Origin: Oscillospiraceae bacterium
GTDB taxonomy: Bacteria; Bacillota; Clostridia; Saccharofermentanales; Saccharofermentanaceae
Reading direction: 5' to 3'
Length of the DNA: 64,000 nucleotides
Assembly (NCBI GenBank): GCA_902802325.1
Contig: CADCLV010000010.1
Span: 1 to 64,000, forward strand
Made by a program: the position numbers and the translations under genes. Numbering within the stretch: the stretch's first letter is position 1; each line of letters starts with the position of its first letter. Under the pieces are notes generated by a model. It worked only from the letters and a program-made list of their open reading frames with translations. It had not been told where the DNA came from and ran no database searches. Of this stretch, positions 19,604 through 28,569 are shown piece by piece.

Positions 19604-20065
19604 ATGGCCAGACTGGTGGATGTCATCGAGATGATGATCAAAGAGATGCTGGATGAGAATAACGGCGCCGCTGTGATCAACCGCAGTGATCTGGCGGAGC
19701 GGGTGAATTGTGTACCTTCACAGATCACCTACGTGATCTCGACCCGTTTTACCAACGGGCAGGGCTATATCGTCGAAAGCCGGCGAGGCGGCGGCGGTCA
19801 GATCAGGATCTCGCGGGTACAGCGGATGCCGGAGACCAATTATCTGATGCACACCATTAATTCACTGGGCGATACCCTTTCCCAGCAGCAGGCGGAGATA
19901 TTCCTTCTGAATTTTATCGATTACGGTGTGATGGATCGAAGTACCGCGCGGCTCATTAAGGCCGCCATATCGGATAAAGCCCTATCCGGGATCGATGCGG
20001 ATAAGAAGGCAGCGGTCAGAATGGATATCTTTAAAAATATGCTGATCAGCCTGATCACGAAATAG
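19604..20065 (+). CDS. ctsR: Heat-shock repressor CtsR
   Basis: Transcriptional repressor of class III heat-shock genes in Gram-positives; it binds the heptad repeat found in its own promoter. At 153 residues it has the family length. The N-terminal winged HTH is seen in NRSDLAERVNCVPSQITYVI. The Gly-rich wing GRRGGGGQIRI-type loop (here SRRGGGGQIRI), which senses heat, follows. The C-terminal domain dimerises and is the target of the McsB arginine kinase. First gene of ctsR-mcsA-mcsB-clpC. Confidence 0.96.
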   Translation: MARLVDVIEMMIKEMLDENNGAAVINRSDLAERVNCVPSQITYVISTRFTNGQGYIVESRRGGGGQIRISRVQRMPETNYLMHTINSLGDTLSQQQAEIFLLNFIDYGVMDRSTARLIKAAISDKALSGIDADKKAAVRMDIFKNMLISLITK

Positions 20066-20139
20066 ACGCCGGATGAAAAGGACGGACGAAGAAAGGAGAG
20101 AACCGGAAAAGATTTCCGGAAGACATAGGGAGGCATAAG

Positions 20140-20808
20140 ATGAAGTGTCAACGTTGTAAGGAAAGAGAAGCGAATGTAAAGATCATGAAGCAGTCGACGG
20201 GAAAGGCCCCGCAGATGATCATGCTCTGTGACGAGTGCGCCAGAGAGCTGGGGATCACCTTGCCGGGCACACTGAAAGGCGGACTTTTCGGCAGCATGGG
20301 AAGTGCCCTGGATGAGGGCCTGGCCAAACTTACGAACCCGCTTGACATGATTGCCAGTGCTTTTTCCGCACCATTCGGATTAGGATTAGAAGGAATGCTG
20401 GATGACGGCCAGGAAAATGTGACCTGCCCGACATGCGGCATCAGCCAGAACCAGTTTGCCAAGACCGGTTTCTTAGGATGTCCGGATTGCTATAAGGTCT
20501 TCTCCATGTGGATCGACCCCATGTTCCAGAGAACACAGATGGGCGTCAAGCACCTGGGCAGAAAGCCGGGAAATGCCGGAAATATCGAGCCGGCGGCCGG
20601 AAAAGAAGAAGGAGATACTACGATAAAGCAGGTGGAGACCGTAGCGGATACGCTGGTGGATCTTCCGAAAGAAGAGAAAGAAAAGAGACTGAAGATCCTG
20701 GAAAAAGAGAAACTTCTGGAGGAAGCGGTCAAGAAAGAAGAATATCTGGAAGCGGCCAAGATCCGTGATGAGATCCAGAAACTGAAGGAAGAGGGGGGCG
20801 AAAAATGA
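20140..20808 (+). CDS. mcsA: McsA, activator of the McsB arginine kinase
   Basis: A 222-residue zinc-binding partner of McsB. Two pairs of CxxC motifs occur: CQRC near the start with CDEC, then CPTC with CPDC. A Gly-rich middle (residues about 40-85) joins them. The C-terminal UVR motif (about 185-222, LEEAVKKEEYLEAAKIRDEI) resembles the ClpC- and UvrC-contacting segment. The zinc centres are thought to sense metal and thiol stress. GGGAGG precedes the ATG. Its end overlaps mcsB by 4 bases, so the two are translationally coupled. Confidence 0.95.
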   Translation: MKCQRCKEREANVKIMKQSTGKAPQMIMLCDECARELGITLPGTLKGGLFGSMGSALDEGLAKLTNPLDMIASAFSAPFGLGLEGMLDDGQENVTCPTCGISQNQFAKTGFLGCPDCYKVFSMWIDPMFQRTQMGVKHLGRKPGNAGNIEPAAGKEEGDTTIKQVETVADTLVDLPKEEKEKRLKILEKEKLLEEAVKKEEYLEAAKIRDEIQKLKEEGGEK

Positions 20809-21854
20809 GCTGGTATTTAGAAGCCGGAAACGATAGTGATATCGTTCTTTCCAGCCGGATCCGACTGGCGAGAAATTTAAGCGGCATGCCTTTCCCGAAC
20901 CGGATGAACGATGAGCAGAGAACGAAGGCGCTGGAGCAGATCTCCGAGGTCCTTTCCAAGATGCCCGGAAACGTTCTGATGCGGATGGATATTTCCCCGC
21001 TTCCGATGATCGACCGTCAGGCCCTGATCGAGAAGCACCTGATCTCCGAAGAACTGGCCAAAGGCCAGGCCGGGCAGAGTGCATTTATCTCCCGGGATGA
21101 GAATTTCAGTGTTATGATCAATGAAGAGGACCACATCAGGATCCAGGTCATGGCACCGGGGTTTGCGCTGGAGAATACCTATAAGCAGGCCGAGGAGCTG
21201 GCGCTTTATCTGGAGCAGAATCTGCCGGTCGCGTTTTCGGAAAAATACGGATTTCTGACGGCGTATCCCAGTAATACGGGAACCGGACTTCGCGCCTCGG
21301 TCATGGTGCATCTTCCGGTGATCGCCGCAAGCGGAAAGATCGCGAATGTGTTTGATTCGCTGGAAAAAGCGGGCTATACGGTCCGGGGCGTATATGGAGA
21401 GAAGAGCCGTCCGGCAGGGAATATCTTCCAGATCTCCAATACCATTACCCTGGGAATCTCGGAGAACCGGATCCTTCAGAATTTTACCAAGATGATCAAT
21501 GAGGTCATCACACTGGAAAGAAAACTCCGAAAGGAGCATTACGAGAAGAATAAGGACCGGCTGGAAGATAAGATCTACCGTTCTATGGGAGAACTGGCCT
21601 ATGCCCGGTTCCTGCCGGAGAACGAGGCCATGAACCGCTTAAGCGATCTTCGTCTGGGCGTGGCTTGCGGGTTCTTAAAAGATGTGGATGAAAGACAGCT
21701 GATGCTTCTTCTGAATACGATCGGTCAGGCTTCGGTGCAGAAACGCTGCGGCGAGGCGCTGGATTTGAAAGAAAGGGACCGGAAAAGGGCCGAATTCGTA
21801 AGAGAAGTACTGCTTAAGAAAAAAGAAACGAAACAAGGAGGAAGTGACGTATGA
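20805..21854 (+). CDS. mcsB: Protein-arginine kinase McsB
   Basis: An ATP:guanido phosphotransferase-fold kinase that phosphorylates arginines on CtsR and on misfolded proteins, marking them for ClpC-ClpP. The protein of 349 residues has the nucleotide-binding start SSRIRLARNL. The phosphagen-kinase loop region follows (YLTAYPS-like GFLTAYPSNTGTGLRASVMVH, residues about 145-170). RGVYGEKS and QISNTITLG precede a helical C-terminus. GAGGGGGG precedes the ATG within mcsA, and 4 bases overlap clpC. All four genes are thus tightly coupled. Confidence 0.95.
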   Translation: MSWYLEAGNDSDIVLSSRIRLARNLSGMPFPNRMNDEQRTKALEQISEVLSKMPGNVLMRMDISPLPMIDRQALIEKHLISEELAKGQAGQSAFISRDENFSVMINEEDHIRIQVMAPGFALENTYKQAEELALYLEQNLPVAFSEKYGFLTAYPSNTGTGLRASVMVHLPVIAASGKIANVFDSLEKAGYTVRGVYGEKSRPAGNIFQISNTITLGISENRILQNFTKMINEVITLERKLRKEHYEKNKDRLEDKIYRSMGELAYARFLPENEAMNRLSDLRLGVACGFLKDVDERQLMLLLNTIGQASVQKRCGEALDLKERDRKRAEFVREVLLKKKETKQGGSDV

Positions 21855-24535
21855 ATATATCCAGAAGAACAATGGAAATGCTGTCCCGTGCCCAGATGTA
21901 CGCGGCGGCACTGAATCTGAATTTTATCGGTACAGAGCATGTGCTCCTGGCCTTGTCGGATACGAGCATGACGCCGGTGGATGAGATCATGGAAAAGCAT
22001 GGTGTCAGCCAGACGGATGTCATGGAAGAAATCGTCAAGATCACCGGGCGGGAGCCAGGTGCATTTACCGAAAGAGAAAGCGATCCGAACGAGATCTTTA
22101 CCCACTGCACCAACCGGACAAAGAGACTTCTTTACCTGGCGGAGTTCCTGACAAAGAAGACCGGAAGAAACGTTGTGGAACCGGAACATGTGCTTCTGGC
22201 GATCCTTCGTGACGGCCAGTGCACGGCATTTAGGATCCTGGCTTACCACGACTTCGATGCCAAGCATGCGGCGGAAGATCTGATCGAGATCCTGAAAGAG
22301 CGGGCGAAGAGTGAAAACTCCCGCTTTGACGATGAGGGCGACGAGGACGAGGATGAAGAACTCGATCGCGACGACGAGGACGAGATGGACGACGGCGATG
22401 TGGAGGAAGCCCAGCAAAGACGTCTTGAGCGCTATATGCGCGGTATGTCCGGCAAGAAGGAAAAGAACGGAAAGAAAGACGGCGCTAAGGACAGTAAGAC
22501 GAAAGTCCTGGATAAGTTCTGCAAAGACCTGACGGCGGAGGCCAAAGAAGGCCGTATCGATCCGGTGATCGGACGTGAGGAGGAGATCTCCCGTGTCATG
22601 CAGATCCTGGTAAGAAGAACGAAGAATAATCCGTGCCTTATCGGTGAACCAGGTGTTGGTAAGACTGCCATCGCCGAGGGCCTGGCACTGAAGATCGTCA
22701 ATAACGACGTGCCGGATCTTCTGGCCGGAAAGAGAGTCTTGTCTTTGGATCTGGCCTCGATGGTTGCCGGAACCCGTTACAGAGGTGACTTTGAAGAGCG
22801 CTTTAAGAAAGGCCTGGAGGAAGCCACCAAAGCCGGTGACGTGATCCTCTTTATCGATGAGCTGCATACCATTATGGGTGCCGGAAATACGGAAGGCGCC
22901 ATGGATGCGGCCAATATGCTCAAGCCGCTTCTGGCCCGTGGCGAACTGCATGTCATTGGTGCTACCACTTTGGATGAGTACAGAAAGCATATCGAAAAGG
23001 ACTCCGCGCTGGAGCGACGTTTCCAGCAGGTACTGGTCAAAGAGCCGAGCACTACGGATGCGATCCTGATCTTAAAGGGTATCCGAAGCAAGTTCGAAGA
23101 GCATCACGGAATCAAGATCCCGGACGATGCCATCGATGCAGCTGTGATTCTCAGCAGCCGGTATATCACAGACCGTTTCCTGCCGGATAAGGCCATCGAC
23201 CTGATCGATGAGGCGGCTTCGAGACTTCGTATCAAGTCTTCTACGGAACCGGAGGAGACAAAGAAGATCGGTGAGAGAATTAACGAGATCATGCGTCTGA
23301 AGCAGGAAGCGGTTTCCAATCAGGATTTCGAAACTGCCCAGAAGCTGCGTGATGAGGAGACGCTCCTGGAAGAGAAACTCAGCACTCTCCGTCAGCAGGT
23401 AGTCAGCTCCAAGGAGAAGCAGGAACTGGCCCTGACACCGGATGACATCGCCGATATCGTGGCCAACTGGACAGGTATCCCGGTCAAGAAGATCACGGAA
23501 AGCGATGCAGAGCGTCTGAAGACACTGGAAGAAGAGCTGAAGAAGCGTGTTATCGGTCAGGATGAAGCCGTTACGGCAATCGCCAAAGCGATCAGAAGAT
23601 CCCGTCTGGGTCTTAAAGATCCGAAGCGTCCTTCCGGTTCCTTTATCTTCCTGGGTACCACCGGTGTTGGTAAGACGGAGCTGGCAAAAGCACTGGCCGA
23701 GGTCATGTTCGGGAATGAAAATGCCCTGATCCGTGTCGACATGTCGGAGTATATGGAGAAACACGATGTCAGCAAGCTCATCGGTTCGCCGCCGGGCTAT
23801 GTAGGTTACGATGAGGGCGGTCAGCTGACCGAGAAGGTCCGCCGTCAGCCGTATTCGGTAGTGCTTTTTGATGAGATCGAAAAGGCACATCCGGAGATCT
23901 TCAACTCTATGCTGCAGATCCTGGATGACGGCCGTCTGACTGATGGCCAGGGCCGTATCGTAGACTTTAAGAATACGATCATCATCATGACATCCAATAT
24001 CGGTGCCCGTATGCTGACCACTTCGGCCGGACGTCATATCGGCTTCTCTATTCCGAGTGAGAAGAAGGACGATCCGTTCGTAGATGAGGCAGATGCAGGA
24101 CGTCTTTATGGCGGCAAGTCCTACGCCGAGGCAAAGGAACTGGTCATGGAGGAACTGAAGAAGGCCTTTAATCCGGAGTTCATCAACCGTGTGGATGAGA
24201 TCATCTTCTTCCGTATGCTGGGCAAGCAGTCGATCCTGAAGATCGTAGATCTTCTGACCGACAGCCTCAGTAAGCGCGTGAAGGAGCTGGGCATCGATAT
24301 CGAGCTGACCGACGAAGCCAGAGAGCTTCTGGCTAAGCGCGGCTACGATCCGCAGTACGGTGCCCGTCCGCTCAAGCGTGTCATCCAGTCCATGGTGGAG
24401 GATAAGTTCTCTGAAGCCCTGCTGGATCGGACGGTGGAAGCCGGTTCGACCGCACTGGTGGATGTGGAAAACGACGAGATCGTGATCCGCAAAAAAGAAG
24501 CGCGTGTCGCTTCACTGCATGAAGTAGAAGAATAA
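21851..24535 (+). CDS. clpC: ATP-dependent protease ATPase subunit ClpC
   Basis: AAA+ unfoldase that feeds ClpP, of 894 residues against about 810 in B. subtilis. Order: double Clp N domain (about 1-150), first AAA+ domain with [13 protein letters not shown], middle domain with a UVR motif ([18 protein letters not shown]), second AAA+ domain with [26 protein letters not shown] and a ClpB-like C domain. Between the N domain and the first AAA+ domain (residues about 155-215) lies an unusual stretch: about 30 mostly Asp/Glu residues, then a Lys-rich run. This explains the extra length. The gene ends with a strong terminator. Confidence 0.96.
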
Positions 24536-24605: not shown

Positions 24606-26264
24606 ATGGAAGGAACGAAGAAGAGTAAGAAGAAAAATGCGGTTTCCTATATCTGGGAAGTGATCGGACGGCAGCGCTGGAATATCGTGGCGATGACGGC
24701 GATCCAGATCCTGCTGGCTGTATTTCTGACATTGCAGGCAGGAGTCCTTCGGAATGTGGTGGACCGCGCCTCGGAAGGAGACAAAGATGCCTTTGTGAAA
24801 ATGGCGGTGCTTCTGGTGGCGCTGGTCCTGATCCAGGTCATTCTTCGTGCCATTATCCGCCCTCTTCGCGCCTATGTGACCGGCGCCATTGAAAATTCAT
24901 TTAAAAGACGGCTATTCCATACCCTTCTCTGGGACGATTATTCCTATGTGGCGGGCGTGCATTCCGGCGAATGGATGAACCGGCTGACATCGGATACGAA
25001 AGTCATCGCCGACACCATCACGGAGATCATCCCGGATCTGACGGGCATGCTGTTCCGTCTGATAGGCGCGTTGATCTACATGATGATCCTTTTCCCGATG
25101 CTGGTCTATGTGATCTTCCCGGCGGGCGTGATCGTATGTATTGTGTCCCTTCTTTTCCGCTGGAAAATGAAAAAGCTCCATAAGGGGATCCAGGAAGCAG
25201 ACGGGGATCTGCGCGTATATCTGACCGATCATCTCCAGAGCATGGTGGTGGTCCGTTCCTTTGCTCAGGAAGACTGTGTGGAAAAAGGCGCGGAAGAACG
25301 GCTTTCCAAGCATCTTCATGCCAGAATGGTCAGAGCGCATTTTTCCAATCTTTCCCAGATCGCCTATGCCTTCTTCCTGAGAGGCACCTATCTTCTGGCG
25401 GCGATCGTCTGCGGTTACGGGATCCTGGATGGCTCGATCTCCTATGGTACCTTTACCGCGATATTGGAGCTGACTGCCCAGATCCAGTATCCGATCGCGA
25501 ATATGTCCGGATATCTTCCGCGCTATTACGCCATGCTGGCCAGTGCCGAGCGGCTGATGGAAGCGGAAGCGTATCTGACGGAGCGTCCGGAGGAGAAAAG
25601 TACCGATTTTACCGGACTGGGTCTTCAGAATGTGGACTTTGCTTACAAGGGTGAAAAAGAATCCACCGTATTTACGGACTTTTCGATTCATGTGAAACGC
25701 GGGGATCACGTGGCCATCACGGGCCCTTCCGGCTCCGGCAAAAGCACTGTACTCCGGCTTCTGATGGGACTTTATCATCCTGAAAAGGGAAGCGCCTATC
25801 TGGAGACGGGAAGTGAAAAGATCCCTCTTGAGAAGGCCAGAAGAAGTCTTTTTGCCTACGTGCCCCAGGGCAATCACCTGATGTCCGGCACCATCCGGGA
25901 AGTGCTCTGCTTCGGGGATAAGACCCGTATGCAGGATGAAGATTCGATGTGGAAGGCACTTAGGATCGCCTGTGCCGAGGACTTTGTAAAAGAAACCGAA
26001 AAGGGACTGGATACGAAGCTTGGTGAGCGCGGCGCCGGTTTTTCAGAAGGCCAGATCCAGCGGATCGCCATTGCCCGTGCCCTCTTTTCTTCCCATCCGA
26101 TACTGATCCTGGATGAGGCGACCAGTGCTTTGGACGAAGATACGGAAGAAAGACTTCTGGAGACATTGCGCGCCCAGACAGACCGCACGGTCATCATCGT
26201 GACCCACAGAAAGAGCGTCCTGAAGATCTGCAACCAGGAGTACCACATTCCCGAACGGGGATAA
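24606..26264 (+). CDS. ABC transporter half-molecule, fused permease and ATPase
   Basis: A 552-residue type I exporter half. The membrane domain (residues about 20-310) has six hydrophobic helices; the ATPase follows at about 340-552. Walker A is GPSGSGKSTVLRLL, the Q-loop is VPQGNHL, Walker B is ILILDEATSALDE and the switch histidine is in IIVTHRK. The signature is FSEGQIQR in place of LSGGQ, a variant known in exporters. No partner half-gene lies next to it, so it probably works as a homodimer. The substrate cannot be told. It starts 16 bases after the clpC terminator with a weak ribosome site (AAGGGAA). Confidence 0.9.
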   Translation: MEGTKKSKKKNAVSYIWEVIGRQRWNIVAMTAIQILLAVFLTLQAGVLRNVVDRASEGDKDAFVKMAVLLVALVLIQVILRAIIRPLRAYVTGAIENSFKRRLFHTLLWDDYSYVAGVHSGEWMNRLTSDTKVIADTITEIIPDLTGMLFRLIGALIYMMILFPMLVYVIFPAGVIVCIVSLLFRWKMKKLHKGIQEADGDLRVYLTDHLQSMVVVRSFAQEDCVEKGAEERLSKHLHARMVRAHFSNLSQIAYAFFLRGTYLLAAIVCGYGILDGSISYGTFTAILELTAQIQYPIANMSGYLPRYYAMLASAERLMEAEAYLTERPEEKSTDFTGLGLQNVDFAYKGEKESTVFTDFSIHVKRGDHVAITGPSGSGKSTVLRLLMGLYHPEKGSAYLETGSEKIPLEKARRSLFAYVPQGNHLMSGTIREVLCFGDKTRMQDEDSMWKALRIACAEDFVKETEKGLDTKLGERGAGFSEGQIQRIAIARALFSSHPILILDEATSALDEDTEERLLETLRAQTDRTVIIVTHRKSVLKICNQEYHIPERG

Positions 26265-26284
26265 AAAATCACGTATATAGGATA

Positions 26285-26314
26285 TTGACAGGAACGAACG
26301 TTCGGTATTACAAT
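26285..26314 (+). promoter_or_regulatory. Promoter of the TIGR03915-like gene with internal LexA-like box
   Basis: TTGACA (26285-26290), 18 bases, TACAAT (26309-26314). The spacer holds GAAC-GAAC-GTTC (26292-26303), which fits the Gram-positive LexA/DinR (Cheo) box GAAC-N4-GTTC. A repressor there would block RNA polymerase directly, so SOS control is likely (inference). Confidence 0.75.
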
Positions 26315-26368
26315 AGCGCCATAACCTAAAAGACGAACATAATTTCGTAAAAGAAAGGGGCGCGTATC

Positions 26369-27163
26369 ATGAACGATGATCTGGAATATATCTATGACGG
26401 TACTTTTGAGGGTTTCCTCAGCTGTGTGTGTGCCAGCTTTATGAGAAGGGAAGTTCCCGGACATATCTATGTGGAAGAAGGCGTGCCGCTTCTTGGCGAA
26501 ACGGCGACCTGGATCCCGACAGACTGGAAAGCGGCCCAGAGCGTCTATGTTTCTTTGAGCCGGAAGATCGGAATGGAAGCCCAGGATGTGGTAAAAGAAG
26601 CCTTTCTGACTCATCTTCCGAATAAAGAGATGATCCTTTTCCGGTATATCTGCCTGGGATATCGTCTTGGAAGGCTGGTGCTTTCCGAGGAAGACTGGCA
26701 GGAAGAGACTTCAGGGCAGAAGGCCGTGCCGGATCTGTGTCAGAGAAAGCTGATCCGGACGGTGCTTTCGGCGGTGACGCTGTACCGGGCCGAGGTAAAA
26801 AATGTGGAAGGGACTATCCGGTTTCGTTCTTTTTCCGATGTGATGATCTCCTGCATTATGCCGAAAAACAGGATCCTCCCCAGCCTGGCGGATCATTTTG
26901 AAAGGCGGTTTATCCGGAATAATTTCCTGGTCTACGATAAGACGCATCAGATGGCGGCATTACACCGTGAAGAGGGGACCATGGTCACAAGGATGGATCA
27001 CATGCAGCTTCCGGTGCTTTACGATGAGAATCACGTATACACGAATCTTTGGAAATCCTGGTATGATCACATGCAGATCCAGACACCTGCTGATCCGAAA
27101 TATGCTCTGAATGAGATGAAAGGAAGACTCTGGTGGGAGATCCGGAGCGGGGAGGGCGCATGA
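26369..27163 (+). CDS. TIGR03915/DUF4130-type putative DNA repair protein
   Basis: A 264-residue protein of the family annotated as a probable DNA metabolism or repair protein (TIGR03915, DUF4130). The typical start YDGTFEGFLSCVCASF, the internal LFRYICLGYRLG and RFRSFSDVMISCIMPKNRIL, and the uracil-DNA-glycosylase-like C-terminal segment FVYDKTHQMAALH (here LVYDKTHQMAALH) support this. In most genomes it sits next to a radical SAM protein (TIGR03916), and the pair has been proposed to act in DNA repair or modification; no radical SAM gene is present here. The LexA-like box in its promoter agrees with such a role. RBS AAAGGGGC. It converges with the MATE gene, with 11 bases between the stops. 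Confidence 0.8.
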   Translation: MNDDLEYIYDGTFEGFLSCVCASFMRREVPGHIYVEEGVPLLGETATWIPTDWKAAQSVYVSLSRKIGMEAQDVVKEAFLTHLPNKEMILFRYICLGYRLGRLVLSEEDWQEETSGQKAVPDLCQRKLIRTVLSAVTLYRAEVKNVEGTIRFRSFSDVMISCIMPKNRILPSLADHFERRFIRNNFLVYDKTHQMAALHREEGTMVTRMDHMQLPVLYDENHVYTNLWKSWYDHMQIQTPADPKYALNEMKGRLWWEIRSGEGA

Positions 27164-27174
27164 AAATGGAAAAA

Positions 27175-28569
27175 TCAGAGTTCGGCTTCCGCGGATTTCT
27201 CTCGGGAAGCGCGTATTTTCTTATCCAGCTTAAGCAGGAACTGCAGCGCAAAGGGAGCACTGGTGGCAAAGGACAGGAAATCGCAGATCGGATAGAGAGC
27301 TTCGATTCCGTGAATGCCAAGAAAGCGCGGCAGCAGGAAAACACAGGGAATAAAGTAGACCCCCTGGCGCAGGCATGAAAGGAAAGATGCCTTGAAGCGT
27401 TCGCCGATGGACTGGAATGTCATATTGCACATGACATTGACGGTCAGAAGGGGAAGCATGAAGGCTTCCAGGCGAAGGGCGCGGGCACCGATATTGATGA
27501 CCTCAGAATCATCGATAAAGAAGGGCATCAGGTCATAAGCAAAGAAGAAGAGCGGAATGGCGAAGAACAGCATAACTGCACTTCCGAATATCCAGGTGAA
27601 GATAAAGGCGGTCTTCATGCGCTCATACTTTTTCGCGCCGTAGTTAAAGCCAAGTACCGGCTGGTATCCCTGACCGATACCCAGAAGGACACAGAAGATC
27701 AGCATGACGACTTTCGAGAAGATACCCATGGCGGAAAGTGCCGAGTCTCCGGCCAGTTTACCGCCCTGCTGGTTCAGAAAGATCGTGGAGATGCTGGCCA
27801 GTCCCTGGCGAAGAAGCGAAGGAAGACCGGTAAACCAGATATTACTGTGAAGCTTGAGGTCCCGGGAAAAGAAGGAAAACTTCAGCTGGGAGATGTTCTT
27901 TTTGAGAAGGACCGGAGTCAGAAGAAGGATAAATGAGATCAGCTGGCTGATAACGGTGGCGATGGCCGCACCGGAGACGCCCAGGTCCAGAACACTGATA
28001 AAGAGCGGATCCAGAAAGATATTCAGGACGCCTCCCAGACCGATACCGATCATGGAGAAGACGGCTTTGCCTTCCCAGCGCCAGAGGTTATTCAGTACAT
28101 AAGAACCCATCATGATGGGTGCGCCCAGAAGAATATAGCGGGCATAGGTCTTCGCATAAGGAAGAGCGGTCTCGGTGGAGCCCAGAAGATTCATAATGGG
28201 TTCCAGAAAGATCAAGCCGAAGATCGTGATCAGGCAGCCGATTCCCAGTGCGGAGAAGAAACTGGTGGTAAATGTTTTACTTGCCGTGTCGGTGTCTTTG
28301 GCGCCAAGGGAACGGGAAATGATACTTCCGGAGCCCATGCCTAAGGTGAAGCCGATGGCCTGGATCAGGGCCATAAGAGAAAATACGACACTGACAGCAG
28401 CGGAAGCACTCTTTCCGAGCTGGGATACGAAGTAGGTATCGGCGGTATTATAAATACCGGTGACCAGCATGCTGACGGTGGTCGGGATGGCCAGTTTTAA
28501 GATCAAAGGGCAGACCGGAGATTCGGTCATTTTCTTAAACTGCTTCTGATCTATCTGTTTGGCGGCCAT
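27175..28569 (-). CDS. MATE family multidrug efflux transporter
   Basis: A 464-residue inner-membrane transporter with twelve hydrophobic helices in two halves, the MatE arrangement. Marks are PLILKLAIPTTVSMLVTGIY, the conserved MGSGSIISRSLGAKD loop after the second helix, its counterpart GQGYQPVLGFNYGAK in the second half and GVSGAAIATVISQ. Members exchange drugs or metabolites for Na+ or H+. The substrate is unknown. AAGAAAGGATC precedes the ATG. It is alone on its strand. Confidence 0.92.
   Translation of the reverse strand: MAAKQIDQKQFKKMTESPVCPLILKLAIPTTVSMLVTGIYNTADTYFVSQLGKSASAAVSVVFSLMALIQAIGFTLGMGSGSIISRSLGAKDTDTASKTFTTSFFSALGIGCLITIFGLIFLEPIMNLLGSTETALPYAKTYARYILLGAPIMMGSYVLNNLWRWEGKAVFSMIGIGLGGVLNIFLDPLFISVLDLGVSGAAIATVISQLISFILLLTPVLLKKNISQLKFSFFSRDLKLHSNIWFTGLPSLLRQGLASISTIFLNQQGGKLAGDSALSAMGIFSKVVMLIFCVLLGIGQGYQPVLGFNYGAKKYERMKTAFIFTWIFGSAVMLFFAIPLFFFAYDLMPFFIDDSEVINIGARALRLEAFMLPLLTVNVMCNMTFQSIGERFKASFLSCLRQGVYFIPCVFLLPRFLGIHGIEALYPICDFLSFATSAPFALQFLLKLDKKIRASREKSAEAEL

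Follow-up and report, generated by a model that had tools for sequence, protein, structure and literature searches.

A DUF4130 gene without its radical SAM partner carries a conserved LexA-type box in its promoter

The DUF4130 gene and its promoter

The window, i.e. the whole 64 kb stretch of DNA that was analysed, contains a lone gene of the DUF4130/TIGR03915 type that is preceded by a core promoter and two SOS-like boxes (Table 1). The family assignment given in a preliminary description of this DNA holds, as the gene product scores above both curated cut-offs: 129.6 bits for TIGR03915 (cut-off 112.25) and 77.9 for PF13566 (DUF4130, cut-off 27). A protein with 96% identity is found in the rumen MAG RUG13936, ‘Ruminococcaceae bacterium’, and a search in PHROGs gave no match for the DUF4130 protein.

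Table 1. Promoter elements, SOS-like boxes and the DUF4130 gene in the window.
Feature	Position	Strand	Remark
-35 hexamer TTGACA	26285..26290	+	promoter match; conserved in the genus
SOS (LexA) box 1, GAACGAACGTTC	26292..26303	+	in the promoter spacer; conserved in 22/23 members of the genus
-10 hexamer TACAAT	26309..26314	+	promoter match
Weaker second SOS-like box 2, GAACATAATTTC	26335..26346	+	one mismatch to GAACN4GTTC
Lone DUF4130/TIGR03915 gene, 264 aa	26369..27163	+	single-gene transcription unit; next gene converges

The same description had placed a GAAC-N4-GTTC sequence between TTGACA and TACAAT, and both its coordinates and the 18 bp spacer between the hexamers are confirmed. Box 1 starts one base past TTGACA and ends five bases short of TACAAT, and the 11/12 promoter match formed by these hexamers is the sole one obtained with a promoter search of positions 26150-27300. 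Box 1 is also the sole GAACN4GTTC in the 64 kb window, for which the chance expectation is 1.17. Because a single match is at chance level, the significance of box 1 rests on its position and its conservation. Box 2, a feature overlooked in the preliminary description, lies between the -10 hexamer and the ribosome-binding site, 43 bp past box 1; with its one mismatch, it could serve another purpose.

No neighbor of the lone gene was found to be shared by its genus and the sister genus. Of the genus members, 16/23 have a MATE-type gene that converges on the lone gene, and what lies upstream differs from one member to the next; among sister-genus genomes, the upstream gene is tyrosyl-tRNA-synthetase-like (20) or another one (all names assigned by eye). 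Immediately upstream in the window, positions 19604-24535 read, by eye and from ORF translations, as a ctsR-mcsA-mcsB-clpC stress operon followed by an ABC transporter. A search with the consensus CtsR operator yielded nothing above chance.

The LexA motif in the same genome

The LexA box of Bacillus subtilis and clostridia is CGAACN4GTTCG, with GAACAAATGTTT given for recA and lexA of Clostridium difficile in the excerpted text of that study (PMC4234289). The box of the lone gene has the same sequence as that of this regulon, of which lexA, recA and ruvCA are the core targets. Among the C. difficile LexA targets covered by that excerpt, DUF4130 does not appear (PMC4234289).

In the genome assembly of the lone gene, GAACN4GTTC occurs 35 times, compared to 29 times for a reversed control pattern, and a search allowing one mismatch swamps the signal (275 sites versus 237 for the control). 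The GAACRNNYGTTC form is found at seven sites, including box 1 of the DUF4130 gene. A second one is the recA box GAACGAATGTTC, an exact match located directly before the ribosome-binding site. Another precedes ruvC-ruvA, and a fourth belongs to the promoter of a gene for a Y-family polymerase (these three gene products were identified by reading the translated sequences of ruvC, ruvA and the polymerase); of the other three, one is situated inside a DNA-polymerase-III-like coding frame and two are unassigned. The lexA promoter box, GAACAATCGTTT, deviates from the motif by one change and overlaps TTGACA. In the bacterial family, RAACN4GTTY is present at 30/30 lexA and 29/29 recA genes. The lexA and recA promoters, named as a comparison in the preliminary description, hence display the same motif in this genome and in its relatives.

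Conservation of the boxes upstream of lone DUF4130 genes

TIGR03915 is present in 96/115 genomes of the bacterial family. RAACN4GTTY is located upstream of the start codon in 22/23 lone genes of the genus, where 0.70 are expected based on dinucleotide shuffles, and upstream of all 38 lone genes of the sister genus for which upstream DNA was fetched (0.66 expected). When both genera are pooled, the box occurs at 60/61 lone genes versus about 1.4 expected; the genomes are related, and these counts do not represent independent events. The sister-genus proteins score below the TIGR03915 cut-off. In box-aligned sequences, the half-sites carry 1.90 and 1.88 bits, and the DNA 12-60 bp upstream 0.43 and 0.23 bits.

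Box 2 is present in 23/23 members of the genus, 36-43 bp past box 1 where box 1 exists. The sole genus member without box 1 (G097, L048) has retained box 2. In another member of the genus (G093, L049), the DUF4130 copy contains one internal TGA, reflecting a pseudogene, a frameshift or an assembly error.

The radical SAM partner

The preliminary description had remarked that the radical SAM partner (TIGR03916) is missing beside the gene and had proposed to look for it elsewhere. The gap is genuine and concerns all members of the genus as well as its sister genus: TIGR03916 is neither adjacent nor elsewhere in this genome (assembly 95.6% complete, 145 contigs), and is likewise absent from the 23 genus members and from 85 sister-genus genomes. 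Partner-bearing relatives occur in the same bacterial family. TIGR03916 exceeds its cut-off there in only five genomes, from genera g2-g4, where it adjoins a canonical DUF4130 gene; a sixth genome (G002) has a TIGR03916 fragment at the same place, and elsewhere in the family nothing beyond partial matches of about 20 bits occurs. Compared to this radical SAM-DUF4130 operon, the lone genus has no radical SAM gene, transcribes DUF4130 alone and has lost the canonical C-terminal motif of the protein.

In genera g2-g4, the box precedes the radical SAM gene and not DUF4130 in 5/5 cases, and a second box lies 35 bp past the first in 4/5 (exact in G003, G005 and G006, with one mismatch in G004). Across the class Clostridia, the radical SAM gene is directly upstream of DUF4130 in 86 of the 90 loci examined, which form a non-random set selected on score and, manually, to cover different families. 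Of the operon heads for which 120 bp or more of upstream DNA was available, 70/83 carry RAACN4GTTY (1.9 expected); in the 250 bp that precede DUF4130, the count is 0/83 (1.46 expected). Since the box is found at the operon head and not before DUF4130, the operator is that of the operon, and it stayed with DUF4130 when the partner was lost. In the protein tree, a branch (96/90) has both lone groups on the same side, and the partner-bearing members of the family are their neighbors. This placement is compatible with one partner loss, in a tree that is unrooted and has the sister genus on a long branch.

In the DNA fetched for two DUF4130 genes elsewhere in the class, L224 (G406) and L215 (G140), no radical SAM gene stands directly before DUF4130, and neither gene showed a clear LexA box in its upstream region. 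They possibly represent independent partner losses.

Constraint and C-terminal divergence of the lone proteins

Judged by a median dN/dS of 0.10 and 0.11, the two groups of lone DUF4130 genes are under purifying selection. The mean identity of DUF4130 within the genus amounts to 71.7%, and residues D10, G15, G101, E142, P165, D190 and W228 are nearly invariant in lone and partnered proteins alike. The C-terminal residues R234, P245 and E254 (L180 numbering) are conserved only in proteins with a partner and are lost in both the genus and the sister genus. From residue 211 onwards, the model of the window protein has a pLDDT of about 40-60, compared to 83-93 up to about residue 250 in the model of a canonical protein. 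The C-terminal tail of partnered DUF4130 proteins presumably serves the partnership with the radical SAM protein.

Predicted fold of DUF4130

The mean pLDDT of the two models is 85 and 92. Foldseek with both models retrieves PAP phosphatase 8a8k, an archaeal protein (E 4.7e-5 and 1.1e-4), onto which VIA aligns 192 residues of the canonical model (Z 8.7, rmsd 5.2) and 189 residues of the window model (Z 9.7, rmsd 4.2). RecJ matches reach Z 7.7 and 8.6, Cdc45 and DhhP are also among the structure matches, and the second domain resembles family II pyrophosphatase (rmsd 3.0-3.9 over about 77 residues). The leading PDB matches of both models thus belong to the RecJ/Cdc45/DHH superfamily throughout, over about 190 residues. 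Unmatched models often yield Z values in this middle range, but in the present case the match list consists essentially of a single superfamily. Whole-chain TM-scores are about 0.3, and both structures are predicted models.

Kinship of DUF4130 with RecJ is unsupported at the sequence level. The window protein has no DHH triad, hhalign against a RecJ alignment returns a probability below 1%, the 25 Pfam families listed across 80 relatives include no DHH/DHHA family, and a sequence search of solved structures gave nothing significant for the DUF4130 protein. DUF4130 is therefore predicted to have a RecJ/Cdc45/DHH-like fold without DHH motifs, a resemblance of fold only, from which function is not transferable. 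Tentatively, the lone protein may be a non-catalytic or re-purposed factor that binds DNA or nucleotides. It is equally tentative to regard DUF4130 as an overlooked and catalytically divergent RecJ/Cdc45 (DHH) fold that acts as an SOS-induced DNA-binding or nucleotide-handling factor, here alone without its radical SAM protein, which would set the role of DUF4130 apart from that of its partner. If confirmed, a RecJ/Cdc45-like fold would provide the first structural hypothesis for how DUF4130 acts.

Discussion

The DUF4130 gene is very probably a member of the LexA regulon and under SOS control. This reading, already put forward in the preliminary description, withstood two of the three refutations named there, as the box is conserved at orthologues and its motif recurs at lexA and recA. 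By binding to box 1, within the core promoter, LexA would block RNA polymerase, and the weaker box 2 just downstream would confer extra repression. Upon DNA damage, RecA-triggered self-cleavage of LexA would free the promoter. The operator would be inherited from an ancestral radical SAM (TIGR03916)-DUF4130 operon, SOS-boxed across Clostridia; the genus and its sister genus lost the radical SAM gene, with DUF4130 retaining the promoter operator and remaining under purifying selection. While the box and its conservation, the loss of the partner, the selection on the lone genes and the fold resemblance of the models are observed, LexA binding, induction and the biochemical role of DUF4130 are what we infer here.

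From the gene names and our knowledge of the families, we take the genes of CAC3343-CAC3344 and of COG1573-COG4277 to be TIGR03915/TIGR03916 genes. LexA control has been predicted for CAC3343-CAC3344 of Clostridium acetobutylicum, where CAC3344 is named only ‘unknown function’ (PMC3828012). This pair in all likelihood includes the same DUF4130 family and has the same type of promoter LexA box as the lone gene. For the COG1573 (UDG)-COG4277 operon in Bacteroidetes, SOS control has likewise been predicted, in a study that cites previous reports from Verrucomicrobia and Alphaproteobacteria (PMC8565304), and DUF4130 has been linked to this UDG-type system (PMC3765255). The Bacteroidetes operon is thus also an SOS-controlled, DUF4130-linked system, but it uses other LexA motifs and ties DUF4130 to uracil-DNA glycosylase, whereas the lone gene has no fused or adjacent UDG. 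As SOS control was predicted earlier for the radical SAM-DUF4130 pair, the SOS link as such has a precedent. What is new is an orphan, divergent, tandem-box, C-terminally altered and still SOS-controlled branch, with a predicted RecJ/Cdc45-like fold without DHH motifs. DUF4130 is widespread, and its SOS control throughout Clostridia defines the condition under which a phenotype should be sought; in the partner-free genera, DUF4130 is already separated by nature from the radical SAM enzyme.

Because the operator and purifying selection were kept after the loss of the partner, the lone DUF4130 protein most likely has a role in the damage response that requires no radical SAM enzyme. The rival to this role, which leaves SOS control intact, is that the SOS-controlled protein still acts together with a partner from another locus, either a radical SAM protein or a uracil-DNA glycosylase. 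Indeed, 112/115 family genomes encode a UDG-superfamily protein (PF03167), yet this protein is equally frequent whether or not the radical SAM gene is there and so does not track the change, TIGR03916 is nowhere in the lone genera, and the C-terminal motif conserved in partnered proteins is lost. We consider such a distant partner rather unlikely. As a candidate replacement partner, the near-ubiquitous UDG is uninformative.

It is improbable that the lone gene is a remnant of the lost operon in the course of decay, with an inherited SOS box that has ceased to matter. The loss of R234, P245 and E254, the low pLDDT of the model C-terminus and the copy with an internal TGA would fit such decay, but a dN/dS of about 0.1 in both lone groups, the identity retained within the genus, the nearly invariant residues from D10 to W228 and the box half-sites at 1.9 bits argue against it. 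More improbable still, the site could be real but read by another regulator of GAAC/GTTC palindromes, e.g. a phage-type LexA-like repressor. Second LexA-like matches in four genomes (G054, G058, G005 and G006) speak for this option, whereas the lone gene's genome has one LexA match and its lexA and recA share the motif. That box 1 is a functionless chance match deserves almost no credence: the window and genome counts lie close to expectation, but its core-promoter location, its likeness to the recA, ruvCA and polymerase boxes and above all its conservation at lone genes already refute this.

The second LexA-like proteins are encoded at L149 (G054), G058:C21, G005:C53 and G006:C15 and are possibly phage or element repressors. 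In the genome of the lone gene (G000:C22), a GAACAGATGTTC box at L028:109-120 is oriented leftward beside TATAAT, before an ORF beginning MSELKDVITAYRKLPFG that leaves the contig end and is possibly a further SOS gene.
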